64,000 bases of DNA from Chloranthus sessilifolius. Taxonomy: Eukaryota > Streptophyta > Magnoliopsida > Chloranthales > Chloranthaceae. Both the position numbers and the translations under genes were made by a program. Below the pieces are notes generated by a model that was not told the DNA's origin, did not search any database, and saw only the letters and a program-made list of their open reading frames with translations. Within the stretch, counting starts at the first letter, position 1, and the number at the start of each line of letters is the position of its first letter. The DNA lies in NCBI GenBank assembly GCA_021018995.1, contig CM037598.1, positions 43,144,685 to 43,208,684 of the forward strand, written 5' to 3'. This document shows positions 5,515-41,041 of this stretch, one piece after another.

Positions 5515-7637
5515 TGTTGGGGAAATGGAGTATGTTGATTTAGTGTGTAACAACATCAAATCAAATCAAAACAAAGGATGGATTCAGCACAACTACAATC
5601 TCCCAGACCTGCAAGATACAGGGCTATTATAGCAAATTTATAGGTAAGTAAGGGTATGTCCACATGAAAAATGTGAATAAACTATGATGGATCTCCAGAT
5701 CTACAATAGATCTGGCACTCTATCCTACTTTAAGCTACTCTAAAATAAGAAAGAGGTTTTTGTCACTATAAACTACATATTTTTAATGCAGTTGATCTAG
5801 AGCTTAAGAGGACATAGAGGTAAGAGGAAATGGATTAAAAATCAAAAGGATGAAGATCAACAGCTAGGGATTTCGTATTCCAATGAAAATGAATTGAATC
5901 AAAGGCAATGCTTAGATCCGATCTGCAACAATTCTTCATCTGGCTACAAGCTCCCTAGGTTTGACCCTGACAGATGCATGGTAAAAGAATCCAATCTTAA
6001 CTAGAGAATAGAAGCAATCCTAAGGCTATGATCTATCCACTTTAATGGTCACAGACCATCCTAGAGATTGTCCCAATAAATCAAAGCAATCCTAAGGCTA
6101 TGATCTGTTCACTTTAATGGTCACAGACCATCCCAGAGATTGTCTTGAGCCAATGGTTTTAATTAGAACATGTTAACGATTGAGATGCTGTGAATGCCAG
6201 GTTACAAGCTCCCCATTTCTGGCTAGCTCACATGAGTATCCAAACTAAGGAAATTAAATATGAGTAACTGAAATCTAGCTCATAATTAACTCTAAAACCC
6301 ACAATTCCATTGCAATGCTACTACTTATAATGATGTGCTCAGATCTACAATCTGTGCAGCATCTGATCCCTCACAAAGCCTCTGAAACTCTCAATTACAG
6401 ATCATACCCTCACCCTAGGAACTGAAGAGGTTTTTTGCCAACCACCATTGGCTAATAGCGAGGAAGAAGAAGAAGAAGAAGAAGAGAGGGAGAAATTGGA
6501 GGGAAAAATGAATTCAATCTCGGCCCTGGTTTCTCAATTTCTGGATGCCTTTCAATGTTGTTGCTCCTCTATTTATACTTTTTTTCTCATATCTATTTTA
6601 GCCAATCAGAATTCAGAAGAATAATATAGTTATGCTGATGTGGTTGATCCCTCTTCTAGAAGCTTTTCTCTTATTGGTCCACAACTAACAAGTACATGTG
6701 AGGTAGTTAGAGTTCTCGCTTGTGCTCAATTGAATACCAAAAATACCCCCAGGGGTCGCTGTCGTGACTTGGAGCGTGTGCGCAAAATCTGAAAGTTGTG
6801 ATTGCTGAAGAAGGGTCATTAGAAGTTCCCAAAATGAATGTCGAGAGGTTTTAGAGAGCTTTTCGATGGGTTCTTGGTCTGTATGCTCATTCTTTCGATA
6901 GGTTTGGGAAAAACCTATCGCTGGGTTGAAGTGTACTAGTCGCTAGGATTAGTCTCTCTTGACAAGTTTGAAGTAGCTCTCGATACCCTCTATTTAGTTC
7001 TTCCTCCATCCTGTCACCTTGGTGAGGTGATCGATATATTGGGGATCATCTCAATAGGTTCTGAAGGATCCTATTGAAGGCTTCTCTTGTTCTGCTTGGT
7101 AGGTTTATCCGAACCTCGTGACTTCCACTACACCTTCAGCTAAGGAGTCGACAAGATTCTTTCTTTCTGCAATCACAACCTATCGACATGCAGCTAGAAC
7201 CTTATAATAGCTTACTGGATCCTCTCGACAACTTAGCAATTGAGCTTCAGAACTTCTCGATATCTTCTTCCATGACTTTCCTCAGCTGGCACCTATTTTT
7301 GGTGCACTATCTTCCATCTGTTAGCACTCAGCAACCTTTTGGTGGGTTCAATCTATCTTCTCTATAACTGTGCTTGGTCTCAAGCATGACTTGTTGAACC
7401 CATGACCTTCTCATGAATTTATGAAACTCTGATTGCTTGACTGATAAGCTTTTAGGCTGTTGTGAAACCATGATGAGGAACAAATTGCTTCTTTGGCCTT
7501 TTTAGGTGGATATCTGCACTAAGGCTAGATTTTATTTCTTATCTACAAAACATCCTTAACAGACCTTATTAGTCAATTCAAGGGCCTAACAAAGGTTGGG
7601 TTTGGAGGTGAAAAATGATATTTTTCACTATTCAACA
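5515..7637 (-). repeat. 3' LTR of element B
   Basis: About 2.12 kb. The TATA box is TATAAAT (minus, 6571-6577). Just downstream in transcript sense is a GAA microsatellite (about 6463-6485). The U3 (6840-7300) is rich in TCGACAGG, TATCGA and CTCTCGA words. Two conserved hairpins lie at 6030-6130. The polypurine tract adjoins at 7638-7650 (CACCCCCAAACC on plus). Confidence 0.9.
6030..6130 (-). promoter_or_regulatory. two tandem conserved LTR hairpins (B)
   Basis: Copies at 6030-6059 and 6101-6130. In sense RNA the second pairs UGGUCUGU with ACAGAUCA. The first pairs GGUCUGU with AUAGAUC. They use one and two G-U pairs respectively, and both have the loop UUAAAG. The nearer one lies 441 nt from the TATA box. 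Confidence 0.7.
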
Positions 7638-9726
7638 CACCCCCAAACCTAAGCTTTGCTAGTCCCTGAGCAAAGAAGAAATTCAAAACAACTATTGAAA
7701 ATGAAAAAAAAATGCCACTTTTGTAGGGAACACAGATGCATTTAGCATATGCATCAAGCCTTTTAAACCCCTAGGTAATCCCTAGTGGAGGAGTGAAGTC
7801 TCCTGAGGGTTTTCAGTGAAGTTACCCACAAACTTTCCTAATGGTTTAGTTAATGTTAATGCAGCATGTTGAGAACAAAAATCAACTCAAAATGAAATTC
7901 ATTCCACACCTTGTTCCTTTAAGTTCAGAAAGTTTTTATCAAAAACACAGTCTTTTAAAAGCTGAAATTCTGCTGCATTTCCTTTACAATCAATCAGCTC
8001 ATGTCAAGGCATTTTATCTGAAATTTAATACATAGCTAGCTATCAAATTGAGAATGTTTGTTATGATACAACTCCCAACAAACTTAATTTTAGACCCAAA
8101 GCTCACCAGGGCTTGTCCCTCATAAGGAAACTAGAAGGGTACATCAGTTCACTTAGCTCAAGAGCAGTTATAGCCCTCAAATAGGACTGCAAGCATGAGC
8201 ATAGGCATTGCTCTAATTTCTAAAATTTCCTAACTCTTTTCACCATAGATCAGACATATCCTTGTCTCCACATGACAGCTCAATCAATTTCAGATAAGTA
8301 AGGACTTTTTAATGGGTTGTAATGTGGCTTATGGGCGAAATATATAAAGAATAAAATGGAATGAAAGGATTCAAATGTGAGAAATCAGTAAGGTAAGGAG
8401 GTGATTTGCAACTTCACAACCTTCATTTCAGCATAATTCCATCTTCTTTTTGAATTTTTAGAGCCAAAGTGGCCACCTTCTTCTCTTCTTTTTTCAAAAT
8501 ATCTGATGCAATGACTTCTCTCTCTCTTTTGTTTTGTTTTTGTGTTTTTCTTTTGTTTTTGTATGCCTTTCTTTTGTGTTTTTCTCCATTTTTTTTTTAT
8601 GGGCTGGCATGCCGCAATTACACATCACTCTTGCCTTCACATGTGTTTTCTTCTTCTTGTACCAAATTGTCAAAACTTACTCCTCTAACATCTTCAATTC
8701 CTTCACCTTTCCTTCTGAAATCTCAAAATGAGGGTCAGGCTGCATCAGGTTTGTATCAAAGAAAAGCTTGGATTTCAAGGCTCAAATGGTGTTTATCAAG
8801 GGCAGTTCAAAGGGTAAGGATATTTTCAACTCAAACTGTCCAAGGAATGGCCTTACTTCATGTCCTCAATTTCAAGAATGCTATCAAGCTATTTCAACTT
8901 GGATTTGCCTAACTTCTAGGGATGAAAGCTGGATCCAGTCAGTCCTTGGAGCAGCAAAATTACTAGGACACTCTTTAAAAATATAAGTTCTCAGGCCCAA
9001 ATCTCACTGGGTACGATTTTCCATCAAATTTTCTGGGGAGTATCCTCACAGATCTTCTCTCCTCTCAAGGTCACTAAGTGTTAATTTATGAATAGAAGTT
9101 CCTGACATTTGCTTCGTTATAGTGTTAGAACTGCAGCATTATTCCAATGTTAAAAAGTTTTTCTTTTCCAATTTTCCTAAAAAAAATTCAGGTGGGGATT
9201 TACTTCATTTTCATAGTTTTTTATTGAACCTTGCTGCACTACAATTAACTATGCATTGGTAAGGCATACCTTGCCACACCCCCTAACCTAGAAGAAGTAG
9301 TGTTCTCACTGTGTTAAAGATAGCAGTGGGTGTGCAGCAAGGTGAAAAAAAAACAAAGATACACACAAAAAGAAAAGAAATATAAGACATAAATATCAAA
9401 GAAACTAATTAACACCAAAAAGAAATTGCATTAAAATATATACAGAGAGTATGCAGATCTGAATGAGTACATAAAACAAAAAGTAGAAAAGAAAACCTAG
9501 ACACATTCTAATATAGACACGACTCAGGCGACAATGTCCATAACCTCAAACAAAATATCCCATCCAAAAAGTTGTGCCCCTAGCGTAGGGATATCCTCAA
9601 CCTGTTGTCGCTGGAAGAGGAATTGCAAGCCAAGGGAGGGGATGAGAAGGCCTAGGAGGAAGGAAGTTGAGCGGGTGGTGGATGGGGTGGCGAGGGTGGG
9701 GGAGAGGAGGTAGGGGGTTCTATCTT
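7638..9726 (-). other. 3' untranslated region of element B
   Basis: No supported gene. It starts at the polypurine tract and resembles the same region of C (41042-42660), for example CAGAGCCAAAGTGGCCA at about 8459 and 41841. A T-rich tract at 8510-8600 keeps plus-strand frames open by composition. The stretch 9330-9540 is A-rich. Confidence 0.7.
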
Positions 9727-9900
9727 CTATTTTTTCTTCTTCCTCTTATCCTTTTTCTTCTCTTCCTGGGCCAGAATCTGTTGCACCTCCTCGTATTCAT
9801 CCCACAGGAATTGCAGTGGGTATGGCTCCTTAGGTGGTGGAGGGTCCAACCAGATTGGGTAGAATTTGTTTAGCTTATCAATGGGTTCGTCATCCGCCAT
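9727..9900 (-). CDS. 57-residue acidic/lysine-tailed ORF in accessory position of B
   Basis: I do not recognise this protein. It begins MADDEPIDKLNKF, has a proline run (LDPPPPKEPYP), then an acidic stretch (DEYEEVQQ) and ends in a lysine-rich tail (DKRKKKK) that could be a nuclear signal. It occupies the place of the long accessory ORF of C: downstream of integrase and of a motif array, with a TTTAAATAG box 67-75 bp upstream of the ATG. It could be the decayed start of an accessory gene. I see no clear similarity to the C protein. Confidence 0.4.
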   Translation of the reverse strand: MADDEPIDKLNKFYPIWLDPPPPKEPYPLQFLWDEYEEVQQILAQEEKKKDKRKKKK

Positions 9901-9966
9901 GGTTGGATGTAGGGATGAACTGACAAAGTTGATAGAGAATGAGTACCACGGAGGGGGACTGACCTG

Positions 9967-9975
9967 CTATTTAAA
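9967..9975 (-). promoter_or_regulatory. TATA-like box before B accessory ORF
   Basis: The minus strand reads TTTAAATAG, 67 nt before the ATG at 9900 and about 250 bp downstream of the TCGA array. C has a similar arrangement. Promoter activity is inferred. Confidence 0.35.
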
Positions 9976-10225
9976 TGATGAGGTAGGTGGAATAGGGATT
10001 GTCAGAATAAATTTTAGCATTTTTTCAAAGCTTAACTGTTAAAGTGATGGTGGCAATAAATGGCATGACGATAGCGGTAAGCACAACATGTCGTGTGAAT
10101 TATTATGGGGAATGACACCGTGGAGTGCATGCTTGACTATTTTTAGCCATGGGGTTTAATGCGAGGAGATAAGAGGAATTAATGCTCGGACACGGAGGAG
10201 GGAAATGTTGTTGAGTCCTCTCAAG

Positions 10226-10414
10226 GGGTACATGGAGCCCTTCGACCGGTATTCTGAACTTATCGAGAATTACAAAGGAGGACCCTCAGATCTTATCGAC
10301 AGGTTCAGCGATCGTATCGACAGACAATGATGCACCAGTAAAACTCGTCGATACATTCCTTTAGAGCTTTCGAAACCTGTCAACAAGCATCCCCAAAACT
10401 TCTCGACAGGTTAT
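10226..10414. repeat. TCGACAGG motif array inside element B
   Basis: Dispersed words TTCGACCGG, TATCGAG, TATCGACAGG (several), GTCGATA, TTTCGAAA and CTCGACAGG sit between the integrase end and the small ORF. The same words fill the U3 of the B LTRs (6840-7300, 19030-19500). Confidence 0.7.
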
Positions 10415-10612
10415 AAATCAATGAAAATTGGCTTATATCCTGTCCCACAACCATGCTACGCATCCCTTTGTCAACTCAAGTAGTTCCTAGCCCCAAGTCT
10501 ATCTATGAAGGACACCTGATATGTACATACACATACTAACCCTAATGACATTGCAAAACAATAGTAACACACCAAAATAGCAACTATGATACATATGATA
10601 CATTGTTGAGAA

Positions 10613-11761: not shown

Positions 11762-11919
11762 TTGGTCAGCACAATACTTAAAAAGTTAAGGATCATCCCA
11801 CATGTAATATCGAATCTGTGAGAAAAATAGATTCTTATCATCCTTGTTCCAATGTGGGGGAAATTTACCTGCAACTAGATAGTTTAATACGTTGGCACAC
11901 TCATCTCTATAGCAAAGAG

Positions 11920-13842: not shown

Positions 13843-13857
13843 GACTCTTGATCTACA

Positions 13858-14232: not shown

Positions 14233-14301
14233 TTCTTCTGCTGAAAAGACTTTTTTGGATAGGTGAATCCTCGATTGTCTTTTGTTGGTGTAATGATCTT
14301 T

Positions 14302-16205
14302 TTAAAACTTGGCATAGGTTGGCACTTGCTTAATTGCATCAAGTAATGGTAAGTTGATCTTTACTTGCTTAAAGGTTTCCATCATTTCCTCTACTTTGGC
14401 ATTCCCCTTATCAAAAAGAGAAGCTGCTTTTAAAGCATTTGGAAATGGCAAATGGGGAACTGGCCTCCCATTTGTAGCCTTAGCCAACTCATCAAAATAT
14501 TTTTATATTTATTTTCAATTTTTTCTTCTTTTTTTTCTTTTTTCTGTTGGGTAGCATTAACATCTCCCTTATTCAAACTAGGCTGCTCCTGTTGGACATT
14601 CTTTGGGACTGCATCATCATCTTCCTCAAAATTTGTTAAAGGCCCACAACCTACCTGATTTTTTACCAGCCTTCCACTTCTTAATGTGGTGACAGATTTA
14701 GCTTCCTCATGGGAAGAAGAGACTTCACCTACCACATATTATTTCTTTGGATTGTCCATGGGCTAACTAGGCAACCTACCTTCCTCTCTCTTTGTCAATG
14801 TGGTAGACAGTTGACCAAGATGGTCTTCTATCTTTTTGATACTCTGACTATGAGAGTGGACTATTTGAGACAAAGAGCGTAAGTTCTGCAATGAGGCTAG
14901 AACTTGCTCTTCAAAAGAGGATGTTCTAGAAGCTAAAGTTTGGGCATTTGGTTGCAAAGGCTGAACCATGGCCTGAGCCATAGGTTGCTGGTATTGGATC
15001 CTTGGAACAAAATTCTATTGATAAGTTTGGGGAGCAGTTTTAAAAGGCATTTGGTATGGTTGCTGGTAGAACTAATGCTGGAACTGCTACTGGATTTGAT
15101 TTTGTACATTGTCTTGCTTCCACCTCAAGTTAGGGTGGTTTTTTCAGGAATAACTAGCAGTTGGTTGCTGACCAAAAAATTGAGCAGCAGCCACATGTTC
15201 CATTACCAATTCTGTTAATTGCCCAGCAGAGGGGCAATCCTGAATGGGATGAGTGTGAGATTGATAAATGGGACATGCCTCTCCAACACTAGCAACCAAT
15301 GGAGACTGCCTCTCCTCCATCATATTCTCCAGCTTTTGAGTTAAGTTGGCTACCCTTCTTTCCCAATTATTATACCCACCAATCTCATACAATTTTCCTC
15401 TTGATGTATTCTCCTTCACCATTCCTCTTGGGGTGTCCACATCCCTAGCAAGAGACTCTTGCTGTAATGAATTTTTACTAATAACATCAAATAATTCCCA
15501 TGCTTCCTCAGCTATTTTATGAAAGTATGTGCCTCCACAAGAAGCATCCACTATATTTATGCTCTTTGAGTCAATTCCTTGATAGAAACTTTGGATAAAT
15601 TATCATTCAAGAATTTAGTGGTGGGGGCACTGCCTCAACAACTGCTTAAATCTCTCCCATGCCTCATGGAAACCTTCAGTTGGGAGTTGAGAAAATGAGA
15701 GGATATTTTTCCTCAATTGACTGGTTCTAGACATGGGGAAGAATTTAGCTAGGAATTGGCTTTCAATGTCATCCCACGAGTTGATACTATTAGGGAGAAG
15801 CAAAGATAACCAGGCCCTAGATTTGTCCTTTAATGAAAAAGGTAATAGCCTAAGCTTGGTGGCTTCTGACTCTAGACCTGTAATGTTAAAGGTGGTACAC
15901 AAGGCAAGGAATTTATCCTCATGCTTGTATGGGTCCTCTTTACTCAAACCATGGAAAGAAGACAACATCTGAATGGTTGAGGACTTAATCTTATGATTAG
16001 TTTCCAGAGTAGAAAACTGGATACAAAAAGGGGAGTTATATGCACCAGGTGCATAATAATCCTTCAACAACAACCTCGGTTGCTCACCCATTGTATTAGA
16101 TTTAGTTTCAGCAGATGTAGATGGGGTTTGTTTGGGTCTAAGAATCCTTTCAACCTCTGGATTTAATGGAAAAATTTGGGTGTTGAGAGTTATTCTTCCA
16201 AACAT
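14302..16205 (-). pseudogene. gag: gag of element B, broken
   Basis: The start at 16205 (MFGRITLN) aligns with the gag starts of A and C. The core (FHGLSKEDPYKHEDKFLALC, SQLRKNILSF, LLRQCPHH) spans 15615-15960. After a break, 15551-15144 encodes the C-terminal half; its zinc knuckle reads CPIYQSHTHPIQDC, so the second Cys is Tyr. Further fragments continue to 14302 (SQIVHSHSQSIKKIEDHLGQ, then TLRSGRLV). Several stops and frameshifts are present. Confidence 0.85.
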
Positions 16206-16499
16206 ACACCACTCACACAATGCCCAAAATATAGTTCACAACTAATATAATAAGGAACAAGCACAAACAGCTAATAAATCTACAAATGCACAGATATGAA
16301 AAATAATAGAGGAGTAAAGAGATGCAAACTTCAGCACAACCTCTAGCGCAATGTTTAGAGCACCACAGATTCAGATCTGAAAAGAAAATCAAGCTACAAA
16401 ATACTACAAGTGCAATTAGTCAAACACTTAACAGGTAATCACAATTACAAATCTAAAAAAAAATAGAAACAAAACTTAGATCTAACAAGTTTAGATCAT

Positions 16500-17143
16500 T
16501 GTAGATGCTGTGAATGCCAGGCTACAAGCTCCCCATTTCTGGCTGGCTCAAAGGAGTATCCAAACTAAGGAAATCAAATATGAATAAATGAAATCTAGCT
16601 CAGAATTAACTCTAAAACCCACAATTCCATTGCAATGCTACTACTTACAATGATGTGCTTAGATCTACAATCTGTGTAGCATCCAATCTCTCACAAAGCC
16701 TCTGAAACTCTCAATTACAGATCATACCCTCACCCTAGCTACTGAAGAGGTTTTTAGCCAACCATCATTGGCTAATAGCAAGGAAGAAGAAGAAGAAGAA
16801 GAAGAAGGAAAGGAGAGGGAGAAATTGGAGGGAAAAATGAATTCGATTTCGGCCCTGCTCTCTTAATTTCGGGATGCCTTTTAATGTCGTTGCTCCTCTA
16901 TTTATACTTTTTTTCTTAGATTTGTTTCAGCCAATCAGAATTTAGAAGAATAATGCAGTTATGCTGATGTGGCTGATCCCTCTTCTAGAAGCTTTTCTCT
17001 TATTGGTCCACAACTGACAAGTATATGTGAGGTAGTTAGAGTTCCCGCTCATGCTCAGTTGAATACCAAAAATACCCCCCAGGGGTCACTGTCGTGTCTT
17101 AGAGTGTGTGCGTGAAATCTGGAAGTTGTGACTACTGAAGAAG
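16500..17143 (-). repeat. 5' LTR of element B, first remaining piece
   Basis: It aligns with 6180-6828 of the 3' LTR (for example GATGCTGTGAATGCCAGG). About 660 bp of its U5 side and the primer site are missing, deleted near 16450-16500. A TATA box lies at 16900-16906 and a GAA microsatellite near 16784. It ends in AGAAG, one target-site copy of the inserted solo LTR. Confidence 0.85.
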
Positions 17144-19013
17144 TGTTGCTTATTCTAAGTGTGCATGATTTATTTGTTTTTTGAAAACAGATTTGCAACT
17201 GCTAAGTTATACTGAATCTGGAACATTAAAAAGAGTAAAGAAATATCAGCACAGAGAGAAGTGAATTAGCCTGCAAGATCAAGGCCAATTGTAGCAAGTT
17301 TTAAATGTGATTGAGTAAAAGATCGTCCACAGAGAATTTGTTTAAAATGCAAGATGAACCTCCAAATCTGAGCTACCAGATCTGGCCTCTTATCCTATTT
17401 ACAAAGCACATAAGATGGGAGGTTGAATTTGTCACATTAACTAAATGATAAAAGTAAAAGTTAAACTAAATGATCCAGATCTGAGTTGGGAGAATTTTGA
17501 TGTAAACTTATAAAAAATGGAGAAATAATATCTAACTTTGATTTGGTCCTTGAAACAAAATGAGAATGACTGTAGATCAAATGAGAGATGATCTAATCTT
17601 CATCTGGCTACAAGCACAGATGTAAGAGAAATAAATCTAACTCAAGGATTAGATTTAGGCTTATGGCTATGGTCTGTTCACTTCAATGGCCACAGACCAT
17701 CCAATAGTCTTTAATCTAAACGCTTAATTTAGAACAAGAAATATCACTACAAATGCTGTGAGAGATTAGGTTACAAACACTAATTCCCACAGGGTTAATG
17801 AATCAAGGGAAATTGCATGAAAAACAGTAAATCTAAAGGAGTCTAGTGCAATCAGGAGATCAGAGGGAACCCTTAACATGAATCCAATTGAGAATGTACG
17901 ATTTACAGCAACCTTTTCAAATTCACCATTACAATTACAGAGCACAGCTTAAACAGCTCTCAGATTTGTAGTCTTGAATACAATTCTCTTTTAAATTACA
18001 GAGGTATCTCACAGCTCTTAATTGCAAGTAAAAGTTAGGCTATTACAGGGGTTTCAGACAAACTAGCTGATTTGGAAATGGGGGAATAGGAATGAAACTC
18101 AAAATCTGGATGCCCAAATTGGGCAAATGGTTCATCTATTTATAGTTTTCCCCAGGTCTAGCTCAGATGCGTATCGACCAATCTGAAGTGCTCAGATCTG
18201 TATCAACCAATGGTAGTCGAGCACAAGGATCCAGATCTGTTCTGGCCAATCAGAATTGCTCGATCTGGTTCAGCCAATCAGGCGACATAAGCATCAATTC
18301 TGTTATGCAATTTGAAATTCTGTTAAAGCTTCTAGAAGTTCCCGCCAAGTGATTTCATCTTCGGATGCTCACATGGGGTGGAATATGCCTTCACTTCATG
18401 CTTAGAATCTTCTGGATTGTCCCTAGGTTTTTAAATGCATTGGGACGCATGAAAAAGATTACTGAATTACCCTTGCAAAAGCTAGGAATCTCCAGAATAC
18501 CATTTCGCATAGTTTAGGGAACTTTTTGTAAGGTACTGTGACTCCTGAAGCTCTTTTCGCAAAGTTCGGGTTCTATTCGCAAGGAGTTCTCTTCTTTTCA
18601 AATAGGTCAATCATCCTTTCGAAGAGTTCAGGTGCTCTTCGAAAACTAAGCCTGGAGCTTTTAGTTCTTTTCGCAGAGTTCAGGTTCTTTTCGAAATGTT
18701 CAGATTCTCTTCGAAAAGCACTCTGTAGTGCATTTTTCTGTTTGAATTGCTCCACATTTCTTTTATGGGTTGAGACCAGGTCTTTGCCTCTTAAGCTCAG
18801 GCATTTTGACAGCTAGTGAGGTTGTCCCTTCTCTTTCTTCCTTTGGATTGACATGGATTATCATCTTTTTGGCACTTTTAGGTTGCTTTCATGGTTAAGC
18901 CTGTCTTTATTGTTAGCTGTAACATAAGCACTTAAAACACTTATTTAGTTCTCTCAAGGGTCTATCAAGGCCTAGGTTAAAGGGTGGAGAATGGTATTTT
19001 CTGGTTCTCAACA
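17144..19013 (-). repeat. solo LTR of the C family, inserted in B
   Basis: 1870 bp, ends TGTTG...CAACA, flanked by the 5-bp duplication AGAAG at 17139-17143 and 19014-19018. It resembles both C LTRs along its whole length. TATA box at 18136-18144. U3 words TTCGCA, TTCGAAAA and CTTCGAA lie at 18540-18720. A perfect 8-bp-arm hairpin lies at 17670-17699. With no internal region and intact duplications, it is best explained by recombination between the two LTRs of a former full element. Confidence 0.93.
17670..17699 (-). promoter_or_regulatory. conserved LTR leader hairpin (solo LTR)
   Basis: Arms TGGTCTGT and ACAGACCA match perfectly. The loop in sense RNA is UUGAAG. It lies 437 nt from the TATA box. 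Confidence 0.7.
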
Positions 19014-19018
19014 AGAAG

Positions 19019-19864
19019 GGCCATTGGAAGTTCCCAGAATGAATGTCGAGAGGTTTGAGGGAGCTTTTCGATGGGTTCTTGGTTTGTTTGCTCAATCTTT
19101 TGATAGGTTTGGGATAAACCTCTCCCTGGGTTGAAGTGTACTAGTCGCTAGGATTAGTCTCTCTCGATCGGTTTAAAGTAGCTCTCGATACCCTCTATTT
19201 AGTTCTTCTTCCATCCTGTCGGTGGGTTACAACCATCCTGTCAACTTGGTGAGGTGATCGATATGTTTGGGATCATCTTGATAGGTTTTGAAGGATCCTA
19301 TCGAAGGCTTCTCCTATTCTGCTTGATAGGTTTATCTGAACCTCGTGACTTCCACTGCACCTTCAACTAAGGTGTCGACAGGATTCTTTCTTTTTGCAAT
19401 CACAACCTATCGACAGGCAGCTAGAACCTTCCTATAGCTTACTGGATCTTCTCGACAGCTTGGCAATTGAGCTTCAGAACTTCTTGACAGCTTCTTCCTT
19501 GACTTTCCTCAGCTGGCACCTATTTCTGGCGCACTATTTTCCATCTGTTGGCACTCAGTAACCTCTTGGTGGGTTCAATCTATCTTCTCTATAATTGTGC
19601 TTGGTCTCAAGCATGACTTGTTGAGCCCATGACCTTCTCATGAATTTATACAACTCTGATTGTTTGACTGACAGGCTTTTGGGCTATTGTGAAATCGTGA
19701 TGAGGAACAGATTGCTTCTTTGGCCTTTTTAGGGGGATGTCTGCCCTAAGGCTGGATTATATTACTTATCTATAAAACATCCTTAACACACCTTCTTAGT
19801 CAATTCAAGGGCCTAACAAAGGTCGAGTTAGGAGGTGAAAAATGGTATTTTTCACTACTCAACA
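19019..19864 (-). repeat. 5' LTR of element B, second piece
   Basis: Resumes the B LTR after the solo insertion, aligning with about 6829-7637, and ends CTCAACA. It carries many TATCGA, TCGACAGG and CTCGATA words. Confidence 0.88.
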
Positions 19865-21150
19865 GCCACTCGAGAACAGCCACTCGAGCAGTCTCAAGTG
19901 AACCTATCGAGATGTAAAAGAACCTGTCGAGCGGCTGTCTAAACCTATTGAGGTTGATATTCTGAGGCTCGAAGCATGTATTTGTCAACTTTGAAGGATA
20001 TTTTCAGAAATCCATCAGCACAGAGGACACCTGACCTAACTGCCCCCTGTGTGCACAACTGTTTTAACAAATTTGGGGCAATACTTGGATGAAATTTAGC
20101 CACGTCATCAGGTCTTATAACTGATTTAATTCTCCACTTCTTTGATTGGCCAAGGTAGATCAAGTTCACTTAGGAATTGTATAAATAGGGAGGAATAAAA
20201 CAGATCTTAAAATCCAGAGATTTAGGAATTTTTTTGAACTCTTCCCGCCTTTTCTTCTTGTTCTTCTTATTCTTCTTGTTCTTCTTCTTCTCTCCTTAGC
20301 ACATCCATGGCTGGCTAAATCTCTATAACAGCTAATGTTAGCTCGATCCGTAATTTGAATTGTAAAAGCTTGGTAATAAGTATGGATATTGCAGAGATTG
20401 CAGATCCGAGGGTGATTTGTTATTAGTTTTTTTGGATCAATGAATTATTGGTTTTAATGTTTATTTTATATATAGATCTAGTGATTTTCATCGGATTTCT
20501 ATAGATTTTATGCGCCTATGGATGCATGAGCTTCTAGCCTTGCATCCATAGCATTTATAGTGGTTTTCTTGTTTCATTTCTTTCCCCCATGACTGGATTA
20601 TATCCATGGGATCCTCTGTGACCATTTGAGTGGACAAAGTATAGCCCTATGACTAGTCCATATCTCAGGTTGATTTGGATCTTTTTACCTTACATTTGTG
20701 TTTGTAGCCAAATGAAGGTTTTCTATAGATCTATCTTCTACTTTGCTTTACAAATCAATTTTACAGTGAAAAACTATTCCCTAGCTGTTTACTTCTCCAT
20801 ATTTTAGATTTATTTTACCAAACATCTGCTATCTTCTTCAATGCTCTCTTCCTTCATCTTTGAGTTGGCTTTTGGTTCTATTTTTAATTAGATCTATTTC
20901 ATTTCTTTTTTTAGTATAGTGACAACCAAAAAACTCCAACTTTTTCTCCTATTTTTCTTCGTATAAGTTAGAGTAGGATTAGATTTGCAAGATCTGTAGC
21001 AGATCTGGGGATTTGCTACCTTAGATCACAATTCTCTGTGGGACGATCTCTCATTCATTAAAACTTGCTACAATAGCCTTGATCTTGCAGGACTGTGTCT
21101 AATTGCCATTGTTTTTTTTGTATTGTTACATTCCATTTTTGTGCACAACA
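19865..21150 (+). repeat. 3' LTR of element E, second part
   Basis: Starts with the second GCCAC copy and carries on the E U3 (CACTCGAGAAC, TATCGAG). TATA box TATAAATA at 20181-20188, CTT-rich tract at 20250-20297, hairpin at 20614-20639. It ends CACAACA at 21150. ATTAT at 21151-21155 is the likely target duplication in the F LTR. Confidence 0.8.
20614..20639 (+). promoter_or_regulatory. conserved LTR leader hairpin (E)
   Basis: CTCTGT and ACAAAG pair with one mismatch, followed inward by ACCA/TGG and the loop UUUGAG. It lies 426 nt downstream of the TATA box, on the opposite strand to the other copies because E is plus-strand. Confidence 0.6.
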
Positions 21151-24100
21151 ATTATACATCATCAAATTTTTGCTATGCTATTATATTTATTAATAAATGT
21201 GTGGGTAAAAATATGGCAGCAAAAACAAATCAAAAAGGGGGGTGAATTGAAATAATATAAAAACAACAACAATTTATACATAGTCCTCCAAGATCCAGAG
21301 TTGTTGTAGCAAGTTATGATAAGTAAGAGTTTGTCCCATGGAGAGTGATGATCTAAAAACCTAAAGGCGTATAGTATACTCTAGATCTGGCTACAGATCT
21401 AGCAACTCTAAACCTACACTAGAAAGCAAGGTAAAGAGAGGTTGTTTAGGTGTCACAAAACTAAACTAACCTAAAAAATAGGAATAAACTATAGCTAAAG
21501 AAAGGGGGTAAAGAAGGATGATAATGGTGTGGTAAAATAAAATAAAAATGTAGAGGAGCAGGCAGCTATGGGCTAATCTTCACTGCAACTCAGATCAAGA
21601 ACTAGATCTACAACATTCCTTCACTAGGCTACAAGCACAAGTGTAAGGTAGAAGAATCCAACTCAACCCTGAGATATGAACTATTCTTAGGGCTATACTC
21701 TGTCCACTCCAATGTTCACAGAGTATCCCATGGATAAAACTATTGCAGACACTATGATTGCAAGGCTACAAGTACATGTAACCATAGGATCAAACATTCC
21801 ATGAAGATCTAGTGAGAACCACTAGAAATCACAGATTGAATGGGGAATTAGAATAAGCTGGTCATTGCTATAAAAAGCCATGCAATGAACAAGCTCTTAA
21901 GTTTGCAATCTCTACAAGATCCCAAATCTTTTCACTGAAACTTGTTTTATAAAACAAAGGAGAAGTTGGATATGCATCAGTCCCTCCTTTAGCTATAAGC
22001 ACAAAGGCAGGGAAAAAGAATCTAGCCTCATCCCTGTGATCTGGACTCATCCTAAGGCTATGATCTATCCACTTGAATGGTCATAGATCATCCCAGAGAT
22101 GTGGTCAAGCCATGGGGTCAAAACTAGAATAATAAACCTACTGCTACCACCATGTGTCCATGGTTACATGCACATGCACCCATAGGAGCATTAAACCCAT
22201 ACAGATCCCTGTGAAAACACAGGGAAAATATAGATTTAATGAGCTTTAAAAATGACATTTCATTGAATATAAAGGACTTACAATGATCTGCCCTCAAGGC
22301 AACAGTCTGTGCAAACTCCCAAAACTGCTCACTAAGTTATTACAGAACCCGATTACAGATCTGAAATAAAACCTAGCTGCTACAAAGATTTAGCTAGCAT
22401 TGCTGCTGAGCTAAGAAGGGAAGAAGAGAAATAAAACCCTAATCTAAAAATGGAAAAAACTAAAATTGATATTAGGTTAATCCTAAATGCTTTCCTAAGA
22501 CAGATTATTTTCTATTTATACAATCCATAATGCCATGAAAAGCTTTGGCCATTCAAAAGAAAGAAAGAATAAAGTTAGTTATGCCCTATTGACATGGCCT
22601 ATTTTTAACCAAGTGATGCCTCGAGATGTGTGGGACAACTAAGCACATTGGGATGTGTGCTCTAGAAGTTGTGGAATCCCCAAAATATCCTGAAGTATGA
22701 AATGGATGGCTGGAACCTGTGCCTCGAGTAGTTGAAGCTTCAGAACATCAATCTCAAGTGGTTCTCGAGCAATTGGAGGCTTCAGGCATGAATCTCGAGT
22801 GGTTTAGATAGCAGCTCGAAAGGTTGCTTCAACAGTATTTAAACAACTTGACAGGTTCATTGCTTCAGGCATTTCAGCTCGACGGGATCTCAAGTGGTTA
22901 AAATAGTAGCTCAATAGGTTGATTTACAACATATTTTAGCACTGCAACTGCTCAACATAATGCTTCAGCAACATTTAAACAACTCGACAGCTTGCTTTCA
23001 GCACAGACCAGCTCGTGGGGTTCAAAAAACCATTCGAGAGGTTAGATTTTAAGCTTCTAAACTGCTCGAGTATGTGATTTTACAACTGCTGGTCTACTCG
23101 AGGGCCTAGCTTCATTAATGAACTACTCAAATTCTTCAAGTATATAGCTTGAGTGGTTGCAGCTGCAGTAATAGCAGCTCCACAGGCTCAAGTTTCAGCC
23201 ATCTACACTACTCAAGTTCTTTAAATTTGTAGTTGTGCTGCTCATGGGCTTCAATCATCAGCTCGAGGGGATGATATGTGTAGCTCTTTAAACTGCTCGA
23301 GTGTACAATAACCAGCACCTTAAAGTGCTCGACAAGTTAAAGATCTCAGGGAACCACTCAAGTAGTTAAAATGTGCAGCTTGAAAGGATCTTCTCTTCAG
23401 CCATGAACCACTCGACTTCATTAAATGAGGTTTCAGCTCTCCAGGTCCCCAGCTCGAGGGGATTACAATGCATAAAAATAGCTCGAGTGGACTAGTAAAT
23501 GCAGCTCGAGTGGACAACACCTTAAACTGCTCAAGGTCCCTAAAAGACAACACTTTATTGTGCTTAAGTGCTTAGCATTCAGCTGCGATTTGAGCTCTAC
23601 AGCTTGGTGCATCAGCACTAAAATGCTCACATCCTTAATGGTTTCAACCACTGTTCGAGTGTGTTGAGGCAGCAGCAACAGTAGCTTGACCCTAAGCTTT
23701 GACAAGTTAGTGCAGCTACTCTTATACTTCAAGGGTGCTTTAGCAACAGCTATATGTGTGCCACTTGAGCTCCTGCACTGCTGCATATATAAAGTGCTCA
23801 AGATGTTGTGTGCAGCTGTAATTTCCTCCACAACTGTCCTATATAGTTTATTGCAGCATCAATCCACTAAGCTCGAGCGTCAACTCCCTCTCTCACTAGG
23901 ACTTCCAAGGCCACGAGACATGCTCGACAGCCCCAATGGTGTGATCCACCATGGTGCATTCAATGTAACTCCATCAACTCCACAACTTGACTCAAAATTC
24001 CTTCATCTTGGCACTAAAAGGATGGATTGCTGCACTAAGCTATACTTTATTGTCATTTGCAAAAACACACTTAAAACTTCATTATTAACTAGCTCAAAGG

Positions 24101-25706: not shown

Positions 25707-25707
25707 A

Positions 25708-26967: not shown

Positions 26968-26978
26968 AGTTAAGTTTT

Positions 26979-26996
26979 TGGCGCCGCTGCCAGGGA
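26979..26996 (+). promoter_or_regulatory. primer binding site of D (tRNA-Asp type)
   Basis: TGGCGCCGCTGCCAGGGA, two changes from the tRNA-Asp complement seen in A and C elements. It sits 11 nt after the proposed LTR end. Confidence 0.8.
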
Positions 26997-27354: not shown

Positions 27355-28730
27355 ATGGCTTACGACCGCTCGATTCAAGCACACTTCAGCCCAATTGCTC
27401 TGACTGCACCCTCCTATATAGTTATACCAGAAGTTACAGCCAGACGAAATTATGAAATAAAGCTCAATACACTTCAAGTTGTACCTGATTTTCATGGGCT
27501 TGATAGAGAAGATCCCTATCAACATTTAAGGGATTTTATTGAACTCTGCATGATGCTACAACTTTCGGCAGCTAATGAGGAGTCAGTTAAGATATGATTG
27601 TTCTCTTTTTCTCTCAATGATAGAGCGAAAGCATGGTTGACCTCACTGCCTGCTAGGAGTATAACCACTTAGGATGAACTTCAATTCAAATTTTTAAATG
27701 AGTACTTCCCGATTGGTAGAACTAACTAGATTCATCGAGCAATTTAAGATTTCAGGCAATAGCCTGGAGAGTTATTCTATGAAAGTTGGCAGTGCATGAA
27801 AGACCTACTAAGAAAGTGCCCTCATCATGATGTGTCGAACTAGTTAATAGCATAGAGTTTCTAGCAAGGGTTGACTGAGACTAACCAGTCGACAGTCAAT
27901 GCCGTGAACAGAGGAGCCTTTATGGCTCAAAACAGTTAAAAATCCTGGAACCTATTCGAGAAACTAACCAATAACTCAAAGCAAAGATACACCTTGCTTA
28001 GATCTGATCCAGATATCACTCGTTACACCATGCTCGCTACGGGTTGACTTACAGTATCAGTAAAGATAAAGTAAAGAAGGAGAATGATATGAGTCTGAAG
28101 GTTTTTGCTCTTGAACAATAGATTGCAACATTAATGGTTGTCAAACCTAGTACCCTGGATAGATCCTTGGCAAACTATTCTAACTGCCAGTCTCAAACTT
28201 ATACTAAAAACTCAACTGCGCCATCATAGCAGGAGGTGGTGGAAAATGAATAAGTAATGGCCTTTCAAAGGAGAGACTATGGGAACACATATAATCCAGC
28301 ATGGAGGAACCACCCTGGATGTAACTATTGTTCCACAGGAGGAGCACATCTAGCACCATCGGTTGCACAACCCTAATTTCTCCAGACCCAGGTTTTCCAC
28401 CAGAGACCTCAATTTCCTACTATGTAACTCTAAATTTTACTATAGAGCAATGCACCTGACGCCACAGTTATTCAAGTTCTCCAAGATTTGCAGCAACTGT
28501 CGCATCAGCATTCAAAGGATTTATATCAGCTTGCTCAATTCTCTCAAGTATTTCATTCACCCACACAATCCATTACGAAACTAGAATGCCAAATTGGCCA
28601 GCTAGCTTCACATGTGGCAAAGAGAGAGAATGGCTAGTTGCCGATGCAACCAGTTAATAATCCTAGAGGACAAGTACTCTTGGGGAGGAGCACCTGCTCC
28701 CCATAATCTTAACTGAAAACCTAATGGATT
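27355..28730 (+). pseudogene. gag: gag of element D, broken
   Basis: An ATG at 27355 (MAYDRSIQAHFSPIAL) opens a frame with the Athila gag core: FHGLDREDPYQHLRDFIELC, then, after a TGA, SFSLNDRAKAWLTSLPAR and LLRKCPHH. Farther on come YGNTYNPAWRNHPG (about 28280) and the closing SITKLECQIGQLASHVAKRE. Many stops, all inactivating. Protease and pol are absent, so D is truncated near 28730. Confidence 0.82.
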
Positions 28731-31844: not shown

Positions 31845-31846
31845 GA

Positions 31847-31864
31847 TGGCGACTTCTTGGGATA
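31847..31864 (+). promoter_or_regulatory. primer binding site of T
   Basis: TGGCGACTTCTTGGGATA, 2 nt after the LTR end. It resembles the TGGCGACT primer sites of Tat/Ogre elements, reported as tRNA-Arg; the last bases look decayed. Confidence 0.6.
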
Positions 31865-34883: not shown

Positions 34884-36090
34884 GTGGAGGAACTGCCGTT
34901 TAACCCTCCGGGCCCACCATCATCACACCTAGGGTCGAACCAAATCAGAGCGGTCCCGCCACAGCCTCAAGGAAATTTGAAAGAACAGATGAGCGAATCT
35001 GAAGCGGTGATGAAGATGGGAGGAATGGAACTACACTCGACGGACTTTTCAGGACTTATATACATTCTCGATCCCCCCCAAAATTCAAGATGCCATCATT
35101 TGATAAGTATAATGGCACTAGCAACCCCATCGCCCACTTGAAATCTTACTGTGGGGATATGTGCCAGTATGGCGAAGATGAATGACTCCTCATCAAAGTG
35201 TTCCAGAAGAGTTTGATGGGCCCAACACTGAGATGGTTCACATCCCTGGAACCATCCATGATAAAAAATTGGAAAGATCTGACACGCTTATTTCAAGAAC
35301 AATATGTCTATAACATGGACATAGAACCAAGGAAGTCGGACTTGGCCTGATTAAAGCAAAGACATGATGAAACATTCAGTGCTTACTTGGGGAGGTGGAG
35401 GGCCTTAGCAGCTCAGGTAACTCATCGGATTCCGATGATGAGATCGAATTGATAACCAAGGAGCCCTCCTCATGATTTTTAGTATATCGGCGTGATCAAG
35501 TTTTCTTGATCTAGTCCAAATGCCAATCGTCGTTGTGAAGATGCCATTAGAAAGGGCAGGTTAGGAAGGAATGTGGCCAACGGGGCCACCGAGTTCAAAA
35601 GTCGAACCAAGAATTGAACGAAGACCAGGGACAGAGGTACAAACCTTTGTTTACCCCCAGGCCAATACCAAGGCCCCCCCAATACAGCCTCAGGTTACAC
35701 AACCACCCCCGGCCCGGTTCGAGCAAGTACCACGGCGAAACAACGGACCAAGAGCCCCGTTTACCCCCGCACAGATGAAAGCGCGCTTTGAATGAGTATT
35801 CACCTCATTGGGGGAATCCTTGAGTGTCTTCTGCGGTGTTACTACGAAGGCACAGTCAATTTACTCCAACCTCGCCACCCCACCCAATACCAAGGAATTA
35901 TGATCCGAATGCATTGCAATTTCCACGAGGACCGGGTCACCCCTACGGACCGGTGCTTCCGTTAAAGCACGCGTCCAAGATCGATAGAGGCGGAAAGATC
36001 ATACCCCGCCACTTCCCCAAGGGCGAACAGAATATCCATCAAGCCCCTCTACCACGCACTGTGAGGCCCTGCCTAACATACATTGGATAG
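34884..36090 (+). pseudogene. gag: gag core and zinc knuckle region of T, broken
   Basis: The frame starting near 35078 carries a Tat gag core: KFKMPSFDKYNGTSNPIAHL, then, past a TGA at 35183, LLIKVFQKSLMGPTLRWF, NWKDLTRLFQEQYV and, past a TGA at 35348, HDETFSAYLGRWRALA. It shifts frame from the upstream part at about 35070. At 35880-35990 a worn nucleocapsid region (NYDPNA, then GHP and PLKHA) seems to hold a knuckle split by a frameshift. Non-functional. Confidence 0.8.
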
Positions 36091-36179
36091 AGGAAGAAGA
36101 AGAAGAGTTTGACCCTTGATTATATTAGCAATCAGGAGAATTTTCACTCCCAGTCAGCGAAGATGAACTATTTGTTGGG

Positions 36180-37211
36180 GTGATCGAGCCACTATATCTT
36201 GCCTTAGATTATTTTCCCACCACTTGCCAAGAGGCCCTTAGATTTAGGGCGGTATTTTTCCACCCCGCTCCGCCTATCAAATCCAAAGCAGCAGCCCATC
36301 ACAATCATCATATCCACCCCATGCCCAATTTACCCCATACACCCCTCATCACACCCAAATCATCCCTGTTCCTTCATAATTCCATCCCCATATTATCCTA
36401 CCCCATACACACCCTCAAGTCCCTCCACCCAATACATTACTCCCATCCCCAAGTTACCCCATTCCATACGCACCTTCAAATCCCACCACCCAATTTACCC
36501 CATACACACCTCCATCACCCCGAATTACCTCGCCCATGCACAACTCCATCATCCTCAATCTATCCCATTTCATCTACCAACCCATCATCATCCCACCATG
36601 TCCACAAACCCTTTATATCCCCCCATTCCCCCCACTACCCCGCCATGTCCCAGTCATCCCACTCCCTGCACGGCTCCATCGCCCCCAATATACCCCCCTT
36701 CATCCTCAAACCCCTCACCCTCCCCTCCTACCTCCCCACACACACATCCTTCATATCCCTATCACCCCGCTACCACCACACCTCAAACAGTCTCCCCATC
36801 CCTCCAAACCCACACACTCCGCCATCCCCTCGCTATTTCGGCCCTAACCCAACTCCACCACCACCCGGACAAGCCACCCCTCACCCAATCCCCTCATCAC
36901 CTAATCACCACTGGTCCTACCATGCCCAGGTAACACCAGTACAAGCCCCCTCCATGCCCATAACTCCAATTCTGTCAATTCCCCCCACTACCATTCCACC
37001 CCCCATTGGAGTTAACCTGGTCGGACCCGAGAAACCAGTATATCCGGCCCAATCCTCCCTGGAATCCTCACGCACTCCATTTCTCATCCCAAAACCTGCT
37101 TATGACCCGCATCAGGTACCATTGAGCTATGAACAGACGGACATGAATGTCGGGTGCAACCAAGAAGAGGCTGTTGAATTCGTTACCCGATCGGGTCGGA
37201 TTTCTGCCTAA
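36180..37211 (+). other. proline/histidine-rich linker between gag and protease of T
   Basis: A 343-codon open frame of strongly C-rich, G-poor sequence, dominated by Pro, His, Ser and Thr (HPHTH, PPPP words). Other plus frames are also open, so composition explains much of it. The last part is protein-like: ATG-rich NVGCNQEEAVEFVTRSGR near 37150, and VTRSGR is a usual element just before protease in Tat polyproteins. Confidence 0.5.
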
Positions 37212-37283
37212 CCAGAAGCATCAGGGGCAGTCAGAGGAGAGGAAAAGAAGAAAGAATAGGCCACAAGAAATCCCTTTGAAAAA

Positions 37284-38603
37284 ATGGCCAGGGAGCATAT
37301 ACTGAAGACACAGCTCAAGAGAACACCCGCGCATAGTACTGTGTGGGATTTGTTAATCACGTCTCCACTCCACTTTCAAGCCCTAATGGGAGCACTCAAG
37401 GACGCACATGTCTCCACCCATGTAACTCTGGATGAAGTAGGGGAAATAATAGGGCAAGTGTTTGCCCCAAACACCATCTCTTTCACCGATGCAGACCTAC
37501 CGATCGAGGGGAATGACCATTCTAAACCCCTGAATATAACAGTGGAAGTAGGGAACTTGGTGGTACCGTTGGTCCTGATCGACAACGGGTCGGCGCTGAA
37601 CGTATGCTCTCTAAGGACGGCAATCAAAATTGGGGCGAACCCCGACACCTTCTGACCGTCCATATCAAGCGCAAGGGGATTCAACAACACTAGGAGGGAA
37701 ATCATAGGAGAAGTAGACCTTGATCTGATCCTCGGACCGCAAACCTTCACCACCCCCTTCCAAGTAATGGACATCAAGTCTACCTTCAATCTGCTGTTGG
37801 GCCGGCCGTGGATACATAAGCTCGAAGTAATACCATCTACCCTACATCAAAAGCTCTGATTCATCTCAGAAGGAAAAATTGTCACCATCATAGGTGAAAG
37901 CAGAGAGGACATAGGGAAGAGCGCTCTGCACATTGAGAATTCGAAAGTGCTGAACATACCGCACACAGCTGAGGACGCCGATCTCCATCGGTTTGAGTAT
38001 GACTTCTCAAATGTTACCCTCGAACCAACTGAAAATACCCCGGATAAAACTAGAGGAGGCATGGACGCAGCTGTGTTCATGCTCCACAGATGGGGCCATC
38101 AAAAAGGGAAAGGATTGGGCCCATGCCTTCAAGGAAGAAGAGACCCCGTCAAGGCCAAGGGGCAACAAACTAAATTCGGCTTAGGCTACAGGCCCAGAGA
38201 AGAGGAAGTCAGAGAAGCCAAGGAAAAGATGAGAGCCGCAGCAGCCGCCAAGGCCAGAGGAATCATCTTGGAAGAGGAACCTCACGCTCGCCCCCACATC
38301 CGTGAAACCTTTGTGAGCGCCGGGGTAGTAAAAATTGATCTGAATGGGGAGACGAGTGTAACCCCACATAAGCCTACTTCAATCCACCCCACAAATCCCT
38401 ACATCATCCCCCCAGACTTCGAAATGAACTTAGCCGCCCTTTCCTTGTTTGAGGAAGAAGTTCCCCGATCCACCCCACTCCAACACCAACCACTCTGGGC
38501 CCCTCCTAACCGTAGAGGACAAGGTCCCGGAGGATCCCTCTGTAAATATGTTGAGGGAAGAAATGCAAGAGCCTACCGATGCCGCTCCCGATCGAAGAGG
38601 TAA
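37284..38603 (+). pseudogene. pr: aspartic protease and G-patch region of T
   Basis: Protease active region LVLIDNGSALNVC (D-N-G-S, the form I know from Tat elements), with LLLGRPWIHKL at about 37790. TGA codons at 37653 and 37857 break the frame. Downstream, the frame at 37947 holds GHQKGKGLGPCLQGRRDPV...GLGY (about 38090-38190), a G-patch-like RNA-binding motif, followed by an alanine/glutamate-rich helix. Another frameshift occurs near 38500. Confidence 0.8.
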
Positions 38604-38812
38604 AGGCCAAGCCTCGCAGGGAGTAACTGGGCATCCTTGCCCCAACTCTTGAGAGCTGCCAAATGCCATGAAAATGGCACCGACTCTCCAAAAAAACACA
38701 ACCTGTAAAAAGTGAGGTTAGGCTCTAGACCACTCTACCTTGTATACATAGAGATCCACCTTGCCAGGGGCTGACCTCCGAAAAAATACAAAAGATCATA
38801 AAAATAGAAAAA

Positions 38813-39199
38813 ATGACAATTCCAAAAATATTACCCTTTAAAATTCCCAATAAAATTAATGTCGTGATACCCGTCCCATGTGAAGCCAACCCCTTCCTTG
38901 TAGAAATACAAGAAGAGGTAGGAGTCACGAGTCTGGACGAGGAAGGCCAAACCGACAAGCTCCCCAATGAGCTCCTCAAACAATTTGCCGATTTTGAGCA
39001 TGGCCCCACCCCGATCGTCGAAGAGACAGAGGACGTCAATTTGGGCACCACAGAGGTTCCCAGAATCACCAAAATCGGAACGTCGCTGTCCCCTGTGGAG
39101 AGGAAAGGTATGATAGACTTCCTTCGGTCATACCAAGACGTCTTCGCATGGTCGTATGAGGACATGCCTGGTTTGGATACCGATCTGGTTGAGCATGAG
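38813..39199 (+). pseudogene. pol: N-terminal RT segment of T, interrupted by C
   Basis: Reads up to RSYQDVFAWSYEDMPGLD and LVEHE, the approach to reverse transcriptase in Tat elements. At 39199 element C begins. The next codon of this frame is found at 53620 on the other side of C, so the insertion split an open frame. Confidence 0.88.
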
Positions 39200-41041
39200 T
39201 GTTGTTGCTTCTTTGTGTTCTTGATTTATTTGTGTTTTGAAAACAGGTTTTCAACTGCTAAGTTATAATGAATTTAAAATATTAAAAAGAGTAAAGAAAT
39301 ATCAGCACAAATAGAAGTGAATTAGCCTGCAAGATCAGGGCCAATTGTAGTATGTTTTAAATGTAAGTGAGTAAAAGATCGTCCATAGAGAATTTGTCTA
39401 AAATGCAAGATAAACCTCCAGATCTGAGCTACCAGATCTGGCCTCTTATCCTATCTAGAAAGCACATAAGATGGGAGGTTGAATTTGTCACATTAACTAA
39501 ATGATAAAAGTAAAAGTTAAACTAAATGATCCAGATCCGAGTTGGGAGAACGTTTGAGGTAAACTTATAAAAATGGGGAAGTAATATTTAACTTTGATTT
39601 GGTCCTTGAAATCTAATGAGAATGACTACAGCTCAACTGAGAGATGATCCAATCTTCATCTGGCTACAAGCGCAGATGTAAGAGAAATAAATCTAATTCA
39701 AGGATTAGGTTTAAGCTTATGGCTATGGTCTGTCCACTTTAATGGCCACAAACCATCCAATAGTCTTTAATCCAAATCCTTAATTTAGAACAAGAAACAT
39801 CACTGCAAATGCCTTGAGAGACTAGGTTACAAACACTAACTCTCACAGGATTAGTGAATCAAGGGAAATTACATGAAAAATAGTAAATCTAAAGGAGTCT
39901 AATGCAATATGGAGATCAGAGGAACCCTTAACATGAGTCCAATGGAGAATGACATAAAGAACCTTTTCAAATTCACCATTACAATTACAGAGAGCACAAA
40001 CTTAACCTCAGATTTGTAGTCTTGAATACAACTCTCCTTTGAATTACAGAAGTATCTCACAGCTCTCAATTGCAAGTAAAAGTGAGGCTATTACAAGGAT
40101 TTCAGACAAATTATCTGATTTGGAAATGGGGGAAAAGGAATGAAACTCAAAATCTGGATGCCCAAATTGGGCAAATGGTTCATCTATTTATAGTTTTCCC
40201 TAAGTCCAGCTCAGATGTGTATCAACCAATCAGAAGTGCTCAGATCTGTATCGACCAATGGTAGTCGAGCACGAGGATCTAGATCTGTTCTGGCCAATCA
40301 GAATTTCTCGATCTGGTTCAGCCAATCAGGTGAAAAAAAGCATCAATTCTGTTATGCATTTTGAAAGTTTGTTAGAGTTTCTAGAAGTTCCCGCCAAGTT
40401 ATTTCATCTCTGGGTGCTCACGTGGGGTGGAATATGCCTTCGCTTCTTGCTTAGAATCCTCTGGAATGTCCCTATGTTTTTAAATGCATTGGGACGCGTG
40501 AAACAGATTACTGAATTGCCCTTGCAAAAGTTGGGAATCTCCAGAATACCTTTTCGCATAGCCTAGGGAACTTTTCGCAAGGTGTTGTAACTCCTGAAGT
40601 TCTTTTCGCAATGTTCTGGTTCTATTCGAATTGAGTTTTCTTCTTTTCGAAAAGGTCAATCATCTCTTCGAAGAGTTCAGGTGCTCTTCGAAAGCTAAGC
40701 CTGGAATTTTAGTTCTTTTCGCAGAGTTCAGGTTCTTTGCGAAAAGTACTCTGTAGTGCATTTTTCTGTTCGAATTGCTCCATACTTCTTTTCTGGTTTG
40801 AGACCAGGTCTTTGCCTCTTCAATTCAGACCTTTTAACAGCTAGTGAGGTTGTCTCTTCTCTTTCTTCCTTTGGATTGACATGGATTGTCATCTTTTTGG
40901 CACTTTTAAGTTGCTTTTATGGTTAAGCCTGTCTTTATTGTTAGCTGTAACACAATCACTTAAAACACTTATTTAGTTCTCTCAAAGGTCTATCAAGACT
41001 CAAGTTAAGGGGTGAAAAATGGTATTTTTCAGTTCTCAACA
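39200..41041 (-). repeat. 3' LTR of element C
   Basis: 1842 bp. TATA box complement CTATTTATA at 40184-40192. Hairpin at 39726-39755 (sense arms UGGUUUGU/ACAGACCA with one G-U). U3 words TTTTCGCA, TTCGAA and CTTCGAAAG at 40560-40780. The polypurine tract adjoins at 41042-41052. Confidence 0.94.

Follow-up and report, generated by a model that had tools for sequence, protein, structure and literature searches.

The window, a 64,000-nt stretch of the Chloranthus sessilifolius genome, carries LTRs of five retrotransposon families, A, B, C, E, and F. Two LTRs of about 1.85 kb each, 94.8% alike, delimit element C:

51761..53614, minus strand: 5' LTR of element C, with a PBS-like sequence after it
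39200..41041, minus strand: 3' LTR of element C, with a PPT-like sequence before it

Read by eye, the PBS-like sequence after the 5' LTR is TTGGTGCCGTTGCCGGGGA and the sequence before the 3' LTR is GGTTTGGGGGTG. Element C has the long LTRs, and the PBS and PPT at the expected sides, that mark the Athila lineage, and its PBS presumably fits Athila. The ORF at 47478-48806 has RVT_1, RT_RNaseH, and RT_RNaseH_2 domains; among the 120 relatives listed, the species named are plants, and most entries carry no species. A 620-aa ORF (43528-45390) stands after pol, where an Athila element would have an extra, env-like ORF; it matches PF20167 below the cut-off only. The Pfam family ATHILA was matched by no ORF among the eight scanned. 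The Athila label, a lineage of Ty3/Gypsy, is carried over from the first-pass annotation and is putative. A solo LTR of family C (about 17143-19013) is nested in an LTR of element B (16498-19864), whose match to its partner ends before the hairpin region.

A stem-loop shared by five LTR families

The first-pass annotation described a stem-loop in the LTRs of families A, B, C (with the solo LTR), E, and F, and copies were found at the places it named. In the sense strand this hairpin, HP1, consists of GG, a 9-nt left arm, G(A/G), CCA, UUNRAG, UGG, a 9-nt right arm, and AGCC. The 2-nt bulge, the inner CCA/UGG stem, the UUNRAG loop, and the GG and AGCC at the base are conserved; the 9-bp outer stem drifts in sequence and retains its pairing. 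There are ten copies in the window, one worn and one altered, with that of E on the plus strand and all others on the minus strand:

17665..17704, minus strand: HP1 in the solo LTR of family C, perfect 9-bp outer stem
39721..39760, minus strand: HP1 in the 3' LTR of element C, one U-G
52271..52304, minus strand: altered HP1 in the 5' LTR of element C, shortened left arm, clustered right change, 6-bp stem
6096..6135, minus strand: HP1 copy 1 of family B (B1), one G-U
6024..6063, minus strand: HP1 copy 2 of family B (B2), two G-U
3305..3344, minus strand: HP1 copy 1 of family A (A1), two G-U
2792..2831, minus strand: HP1 copy 2 of family A (A2), worn, three non-pairs
2901..2915, minus strand: duplicated HP1 left arm of family A
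22056..22095, minus strand: HP1 copy 1 of family F (F1), perfect outer stem
21691..21730, minus strand: HP1 copy 2 of family F (F2), perfect outer stem, inner stem worn
20607..20646, plus strand: HP1 of family E, two outer-arm non-pairs (C.U and C.A)

The multiple copies reported for A, B, and F were all located, including the worn copy and duplicated left arm of A. The inner stem and loop are kept as described, with wear in F2, and the perfect outer stems of the solo and F copies, the two G-U pairs of A1, and the single U-G of the C 3' LTR likewise agree with the earlier description. The single G-U pair given for family B holds for copy 1; copy 2 has two. The statement that only E has a true mismatch did not stand, as E has two and A2 has three non-pairs. 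The altered copy of the C 5' LTR falls beyond the coordinates given in that annotation.

The perfect stem pattern of the solo copy occurs once in the window and in none of 100 shuffles. Folded alone, the solo, C 3' LTR, B1, B2, F1, and F2 copies have z-scores below -2 against shuffles, and weaker folds are found for the C 5' LTR (-1.34), A1 (-0.76), A2 (-0.57), and E (+0.99). The sense fold beats the antisense fold in eight of the ten copies, the exceptions being the solo and E copies. When the ten copies are aligned over 12 pairs, 90.7% of cells hold standard pairs versus 86.0% after shuffling, a value reached by none of 500 shuffles; seven cells have both sides changed, above all shuffles. 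Of the 500 shuffles, 100 reach the number of pairs with both sides changed (three), and 310 reach that of pair types. Comparison of HP1 between the LTRs of element C (52271-52304 versus 39721-39760) shows a loss in the left arm and the clustered right-arm change, which could reflect a local template switch.

Within the LTR, HP1 is located between a TATA motif and the LTR end. Counted from the start of the TATA box to the first left-arm base, the distance is 487 nt in A and 429-446 nt in B, C, E, F, and the solo LTR; the values given earlier, 422-441 and 484 nt, were probably counted from another reference point. Among the sampled genome copies (see below), a TATA motif, looked for only at 380-560 nt from HP1, was found 400-534 nt upstream in 44 of 62 groups (median, 448.5), and "fixed," the word used for this distance in the first-pass annotation, is therefore too strong. 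These 62 groups, which include one non-LTR match and the altered C copy, have one HP1 copy in 26 cases, two in 30, and three in 6, counts that are lower bounds because the sampled stretches are cut. Tandem copies are spaced by 72-111, 365-398, 427-437, or 512-518 nt.

Pairing and covariation across the genome

We searched the 2.17-Gb assembly of the window (32 contigs) with the fixed inner stem, loop, and flanks, leaving the outer arms free. This pattern has 60,182 exact matches (30,117 + 30,065), whereas its reversed control has 3 (2 + 1) in the same assembly. At the first 100 listed sites, which are all on a single contig, 860 of 900 outer-arm cells are paired, with 765 Watson-Crick, 95 G-U, 23 A-C, and 17 other cells, and there are 49 distinct arm pairs. 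Pair 3 at these sites is A-U (53) or G-C (45), with 2 others; pair 4 is G-U, G-C, A-U, C-G, or U-A, again with 2 others; and pair 5 is U-A, U-G, C-G, or G-C, with C.A in 9. A search with one stem held fixed, as a test of loop conservation, gave 1,832 sites; the 100 listed look like a few young families, and the test therefore says little. One pattern scan of viral contigs gave no hairpin match, and an RT-based scan for relatives in other plants matched 13 stretches, none of which was confirmed.

Three sets of genomic stretches were sampled for alignment. Four 3-kb loci came from the perfect-stem pattern, of which three were used and one was dropped as a chance inverted repeat outside an LTR of this kind. 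The second set was twenty stretches of 10 kb taken by position, and the third was forty short ones picked by eye from the free-arm match list for unlike arms. Such picking is non-random and may favor worn copies, a bias against the finding; the three perfect-stem loci bias the sample toward it. The sample was scanned by scoring the fixed residues alone, with 15 of 19 required. Of the 106 candidates, two hardly paired at all and were removed as chance matches, leaving 104, and the alignment excludes the non-LTR match and the shifted C 5' LTR copy, leaving 102 copies (97 distinct).

In this alignment 94.5% of stem cells are paired. Hairpin columns have a mean identity of 87.5% and flank columns one of 62% (98 modules). 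For the 97 distinct rows, the covariation score is 0.263 versus 0.168 after shuffling, with none of 500 shuffles reaching it, and slid versions of the alignment score at most 0.076. There are 57 cells across six pairs with both sides changed; 60 of the 500 shuffles have at least as many such pairs. Because shuffles ignore kinship, a tree was built from the flanks alone (101 modules). Under a null of independent evolution on this tree (99 tips), 788 +/- 19 of 891 cells are expected to be paired; 841 are observed, and the maximum across 300 simulations is 834. In a G-test with the tree null (98 tips), pairs 3 and 4 rank first and second among the column pairs tested (E of 0 and 0.0025), and significance is reached at none of the remaining pairs, seven in the outer stem and three in the inner. 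Arm covariation, as claimed in the first-pass annotation, is thus upheld on the larger set, and among the nine outer pairs compensation is clear at pairs 3 and 4.

The annotation had also named arms that fail to compensate in a large alignment as evidence against its reading, and the arms do compensate. A left pyrimidine at pair 4 occurs at 4,941 places in the genome, and among the 100 listed the pair is C-G in 57, U-A in 24, U-G in 8, and unpaired in 11, so that 89 are compensated. For a left pyrimidine at pair 3 the genome has 461 places; compensation is seen in 0 of the 100 listed, and these sites look like worn single copies.

Strand asymmetry in the outer arms

Of the two transitions that can strike a Watson-Crick pair, one yields G-U in the sense RNA and the other A-C. 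The first-pass annotation took the G-U exceptions in the transcribed strand as a sign of selection on RNA, and the changes mapped on the tree support this: ~47.7 events run from Watson-Crick to G-U and ~13.7 from Watson-Crick to A-C (means of 100 parsimony reconstructions). The G-U excess is present in both arms and for both transition types. In the left arm the rates are 7.2% for C>T and 2.4% for A>G versus 1.7% for G>A and 0.5% for T>C, and in the right arm 3.6% and 1.95% versus 1.7% and 0.5%. The flanks are without such strand bias (C>T, 4.82%; G>A, 4.75%; A>G, 3.4%; T>C, 2.7%), and against the flank expectation the G-U versus A-C bias has a p of 1.7e-4. Without pairs 4 and 5 there are ~32.5 G-U versus 9.9 A-C events (p = 0.003); on internal branches alone the ratio is 11.7 to 4.8, which is not significant (p = 0.22). 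At the 100 listed pair-4 pyrimidine sites, A.C cells (69) outnumber G.U cells (50), because one large lineage carries an inherited C.A at pair 5 (13 of 99 tips; 48 of the 100 listed pair-4 sites).

Folding points the same way. It had been put forward as evidence against selection on RNA if the sense strand paired no better than the antisense strand, and the sense strand pairs better: its MFE is lower in 77 of 97 distinct copies, with the antisense folding better in 20, and 93.8% of outer-arm cells are paired in sense versus 86.9% in antisense. The hairpin itself is weak, with a mean MFE of -9.9 kcal/mol. Judged from these comparative data, HP1 is very probably a sense-RNA hairpin under selection. 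As such it points to a working RNA signal in a large family of plant mobile elements. Little is known about structured RNA signals in plant LTR retrotransposons, yet these elements fill large parts of plant genomes, and the HP1 copies of a single genome, over 60,000 and many of them distinct, are a natural record of the RNA features that propagation needs. The strand-specific G-U test is applicable to other repeat families.

Putative leader elements and candidate functions

These LTRs have further conserved features. A second, nearly invariant hairpin, HP2 (GCCAGATCT/AGATCTGGA), stands ~90 nt before block2, a conserved block by the 3' end of the LTR:

39417..39442, minus strand: HP2 in the 3' LTR of element C
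5694..5716, minus strand: HP2 of family B
21380..21403, minus strand: HP2 of family F, third pair U-A replacing C-G
20987..21009, plus strand: HP2 of family E
39326..39356, minus strand: block2

HP2 was detected in 51 of 58 segments by arm similarity, with pairing not used, and the similarity cut limits the change that is visible. Its second pair is C-G in 32, U-G in 15, U-A in 2, and C-A in 2, and its third pair is C-G in 43, U-A in 2, U-G in 1, and otherwise in 5; over the eight inner pairs, the G-U to A-C ratio is 21:11, a weak bias. Block2 (TTGCTACAA...TCTTGCAG), looked for at 330-480 nt after the last HP1, was found 371-454 nt past it in 46 of 62 groups (median, 402 nt) and could be a 3' splice site. 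Many HP1 copies have motif X (GCTTGTAGCC) on either side. In most relatives block2 contains GCUACAA, whose complement is found in motif X (UUGUAGC) and, in part, in the common HP2 loop (GUAGC).

We propose that HP1 acts in cis as an RNA hairpin, in the leader of the genomic RNA made by Athila-type LTR retrotransposons, and that this transcript begins immediately past the TATA box. That the unpaired residues are fixed and the stem sequence is free suggests a bound protein, which would read the bulge, loop, and base. The likeliest reader would be the element's own Gag nucleocapsid, picking full-length RNA for packaging, and tandem HP1 copies would add binding sites for it. In family A the gag domain is followed by a CCHC motif (961-1002 of the window, minus strand), which makes an RNA-binding Gag plausible; the motif is incomplete in B and C, where the second cysteine is replaced. 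HP1 also has the conserved RNA structure expected of a psi-like packaging signal. We put this whole explanation at roughly 45%. For the role of HP1 taken by itself, Gag packaging is, by analogy, our tentative first choice, followed by nuclear export, translation, or 3'-end formation. A wider reading, which we consider rather unlikely, is that the HP1 repeats, HP2, and block2 form a composite leader device, kept in tens of thousands of copies with one to three HP1 per leader, as a covariation-supported packaging signal of a plant Ty3/Gypsy lineage; we know of no earlier signal of that kind in such a lineage.

Retroviral psi and dimerization leaders resemble HP1 in having conserved stem-loops in the leader of the genomic RNA. 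In contrast to psi, HP1 lies inside the LTR, ~400 nt into the expected transcript, and most of its loops are non-palindromic. A kissing-loop dimer site, which calls for a self-complementary loop, was accordingly rejected: any nucleotide occurs at the third loop position (U 40, A 24, C 19, and G 14 of 97), and A predominates at the fourth (73 of 97). Conserved dimerization and packaging signals are stated for barley BARE1/BARE2 in the portion of PMC3735527 consulted; BARE elements are, like those with HP1, plant LTR retrotransposons, but belong to Ty1/Copia, and we liken the two by description only. In titles and abstract openings, our literature search found no hairpin of this kind in Athila LTRs, and the main text of a study of conserved LTR structure by HMMs (PMC3601003), as available to us, does not contain the word Athila.

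Among the other roles, a nuclear export or RNA transport element has a modest chance; here tandem hairpins would recruit host export factors to the long RNA. Position, tandem copies, and fixed unpaired residues fit, and a 2025 review (PMC12786077), in the sections consulted, describes RNA transport elements of two mouse LTR elements, IAP and MusD, as well as a structured leader of plant pararetroviruses that recruits TREX components; these are structured cis elements in LTR-element or leader RNA, comparable to HP1 by description. Against export, Rfam at the gathering score gave no match on the hairpin anywhere in the window, and a known Rfam family for HP1 was rejected on this result; a relaxed scan of 17140-18200 gave one sub-threshold SNORD19B match, off the hairpin. 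Somewhat less probable is translation control, in which HP1 would aid ribosomes past upstream AUGs or split translated from packaged RNA. The predicted leaders of seven window LTRs (~30 nt past TATA to the LTR end, ends partly set by eye) are 941-1391 nt long with 9-26 ATGs each, and separate RNA pools for translation and packaging are described for barley BARE in the consulted part of PMC3735527. However, HP1 is a weak hairpin, its arm contains an AUG only in copies with G-C at pair 3, and in an unsystematic look no conserved short ORF ending before the stem was noticed. A slightly smaller chance goes to 3'-end formation, with HP1 lying in R and positioning polyadenylation signals in the 3' LTR; it stands ~400 nt past the expected start, a possible position for the R/U5 border. 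Many copies have UUGUA-containing motifs (X) beside them, and UUGUA presumably resembles a plant far-upstream element.

Readings other than a leader signal fare worse. A perfect stem is also a DNA inverted repeat, and HP1 could on that account be a palindromic protein site or the product of template-switch repair of imperfect palindromes; the clustered change in the C 5' LTR copy fits this, and the inherited C.A of the large lineage would be U-G in antisense. We set this reading aside as improbable, since 49 distinct arm pairs with pairing kept are unlike a fixed DNA site, G-U exceeds A-C in both arms and not in the flanks, and the uncompensated pair-3 pyrimidines are unlike repair acting on every copy, which suggests that compensation is not a general repair effect. 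Least credible of all is a small-RNA precursor. Dicing needs a longer stem than the 9+3 bp of HP1. The precedent is Athila6 of Arabidopsis, which makes siRNA854, for which a microRNA stem-loop was once proposed (PMC3276544). That region is a different part of the element from HP1: in the sections of PMC3276544 consulted, the flanking probe lies 3' of the gag/pol coding region rather than in the LTR leader, no dependence on the microRNA machinery is found in wild-type inflorescences, and the paper argues against the microRNA reading.

The Rfam search also returned snoR71 (RF00097) above the gathering score at 50988-51093 (plus strand), 15613-15718 (plus strand), and 27728-27833 (minus strand). 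These matches overlap gag-like stretches, by position or reading, on the opposite strand, and the snoR71 family may partly match retrotransposon gag.
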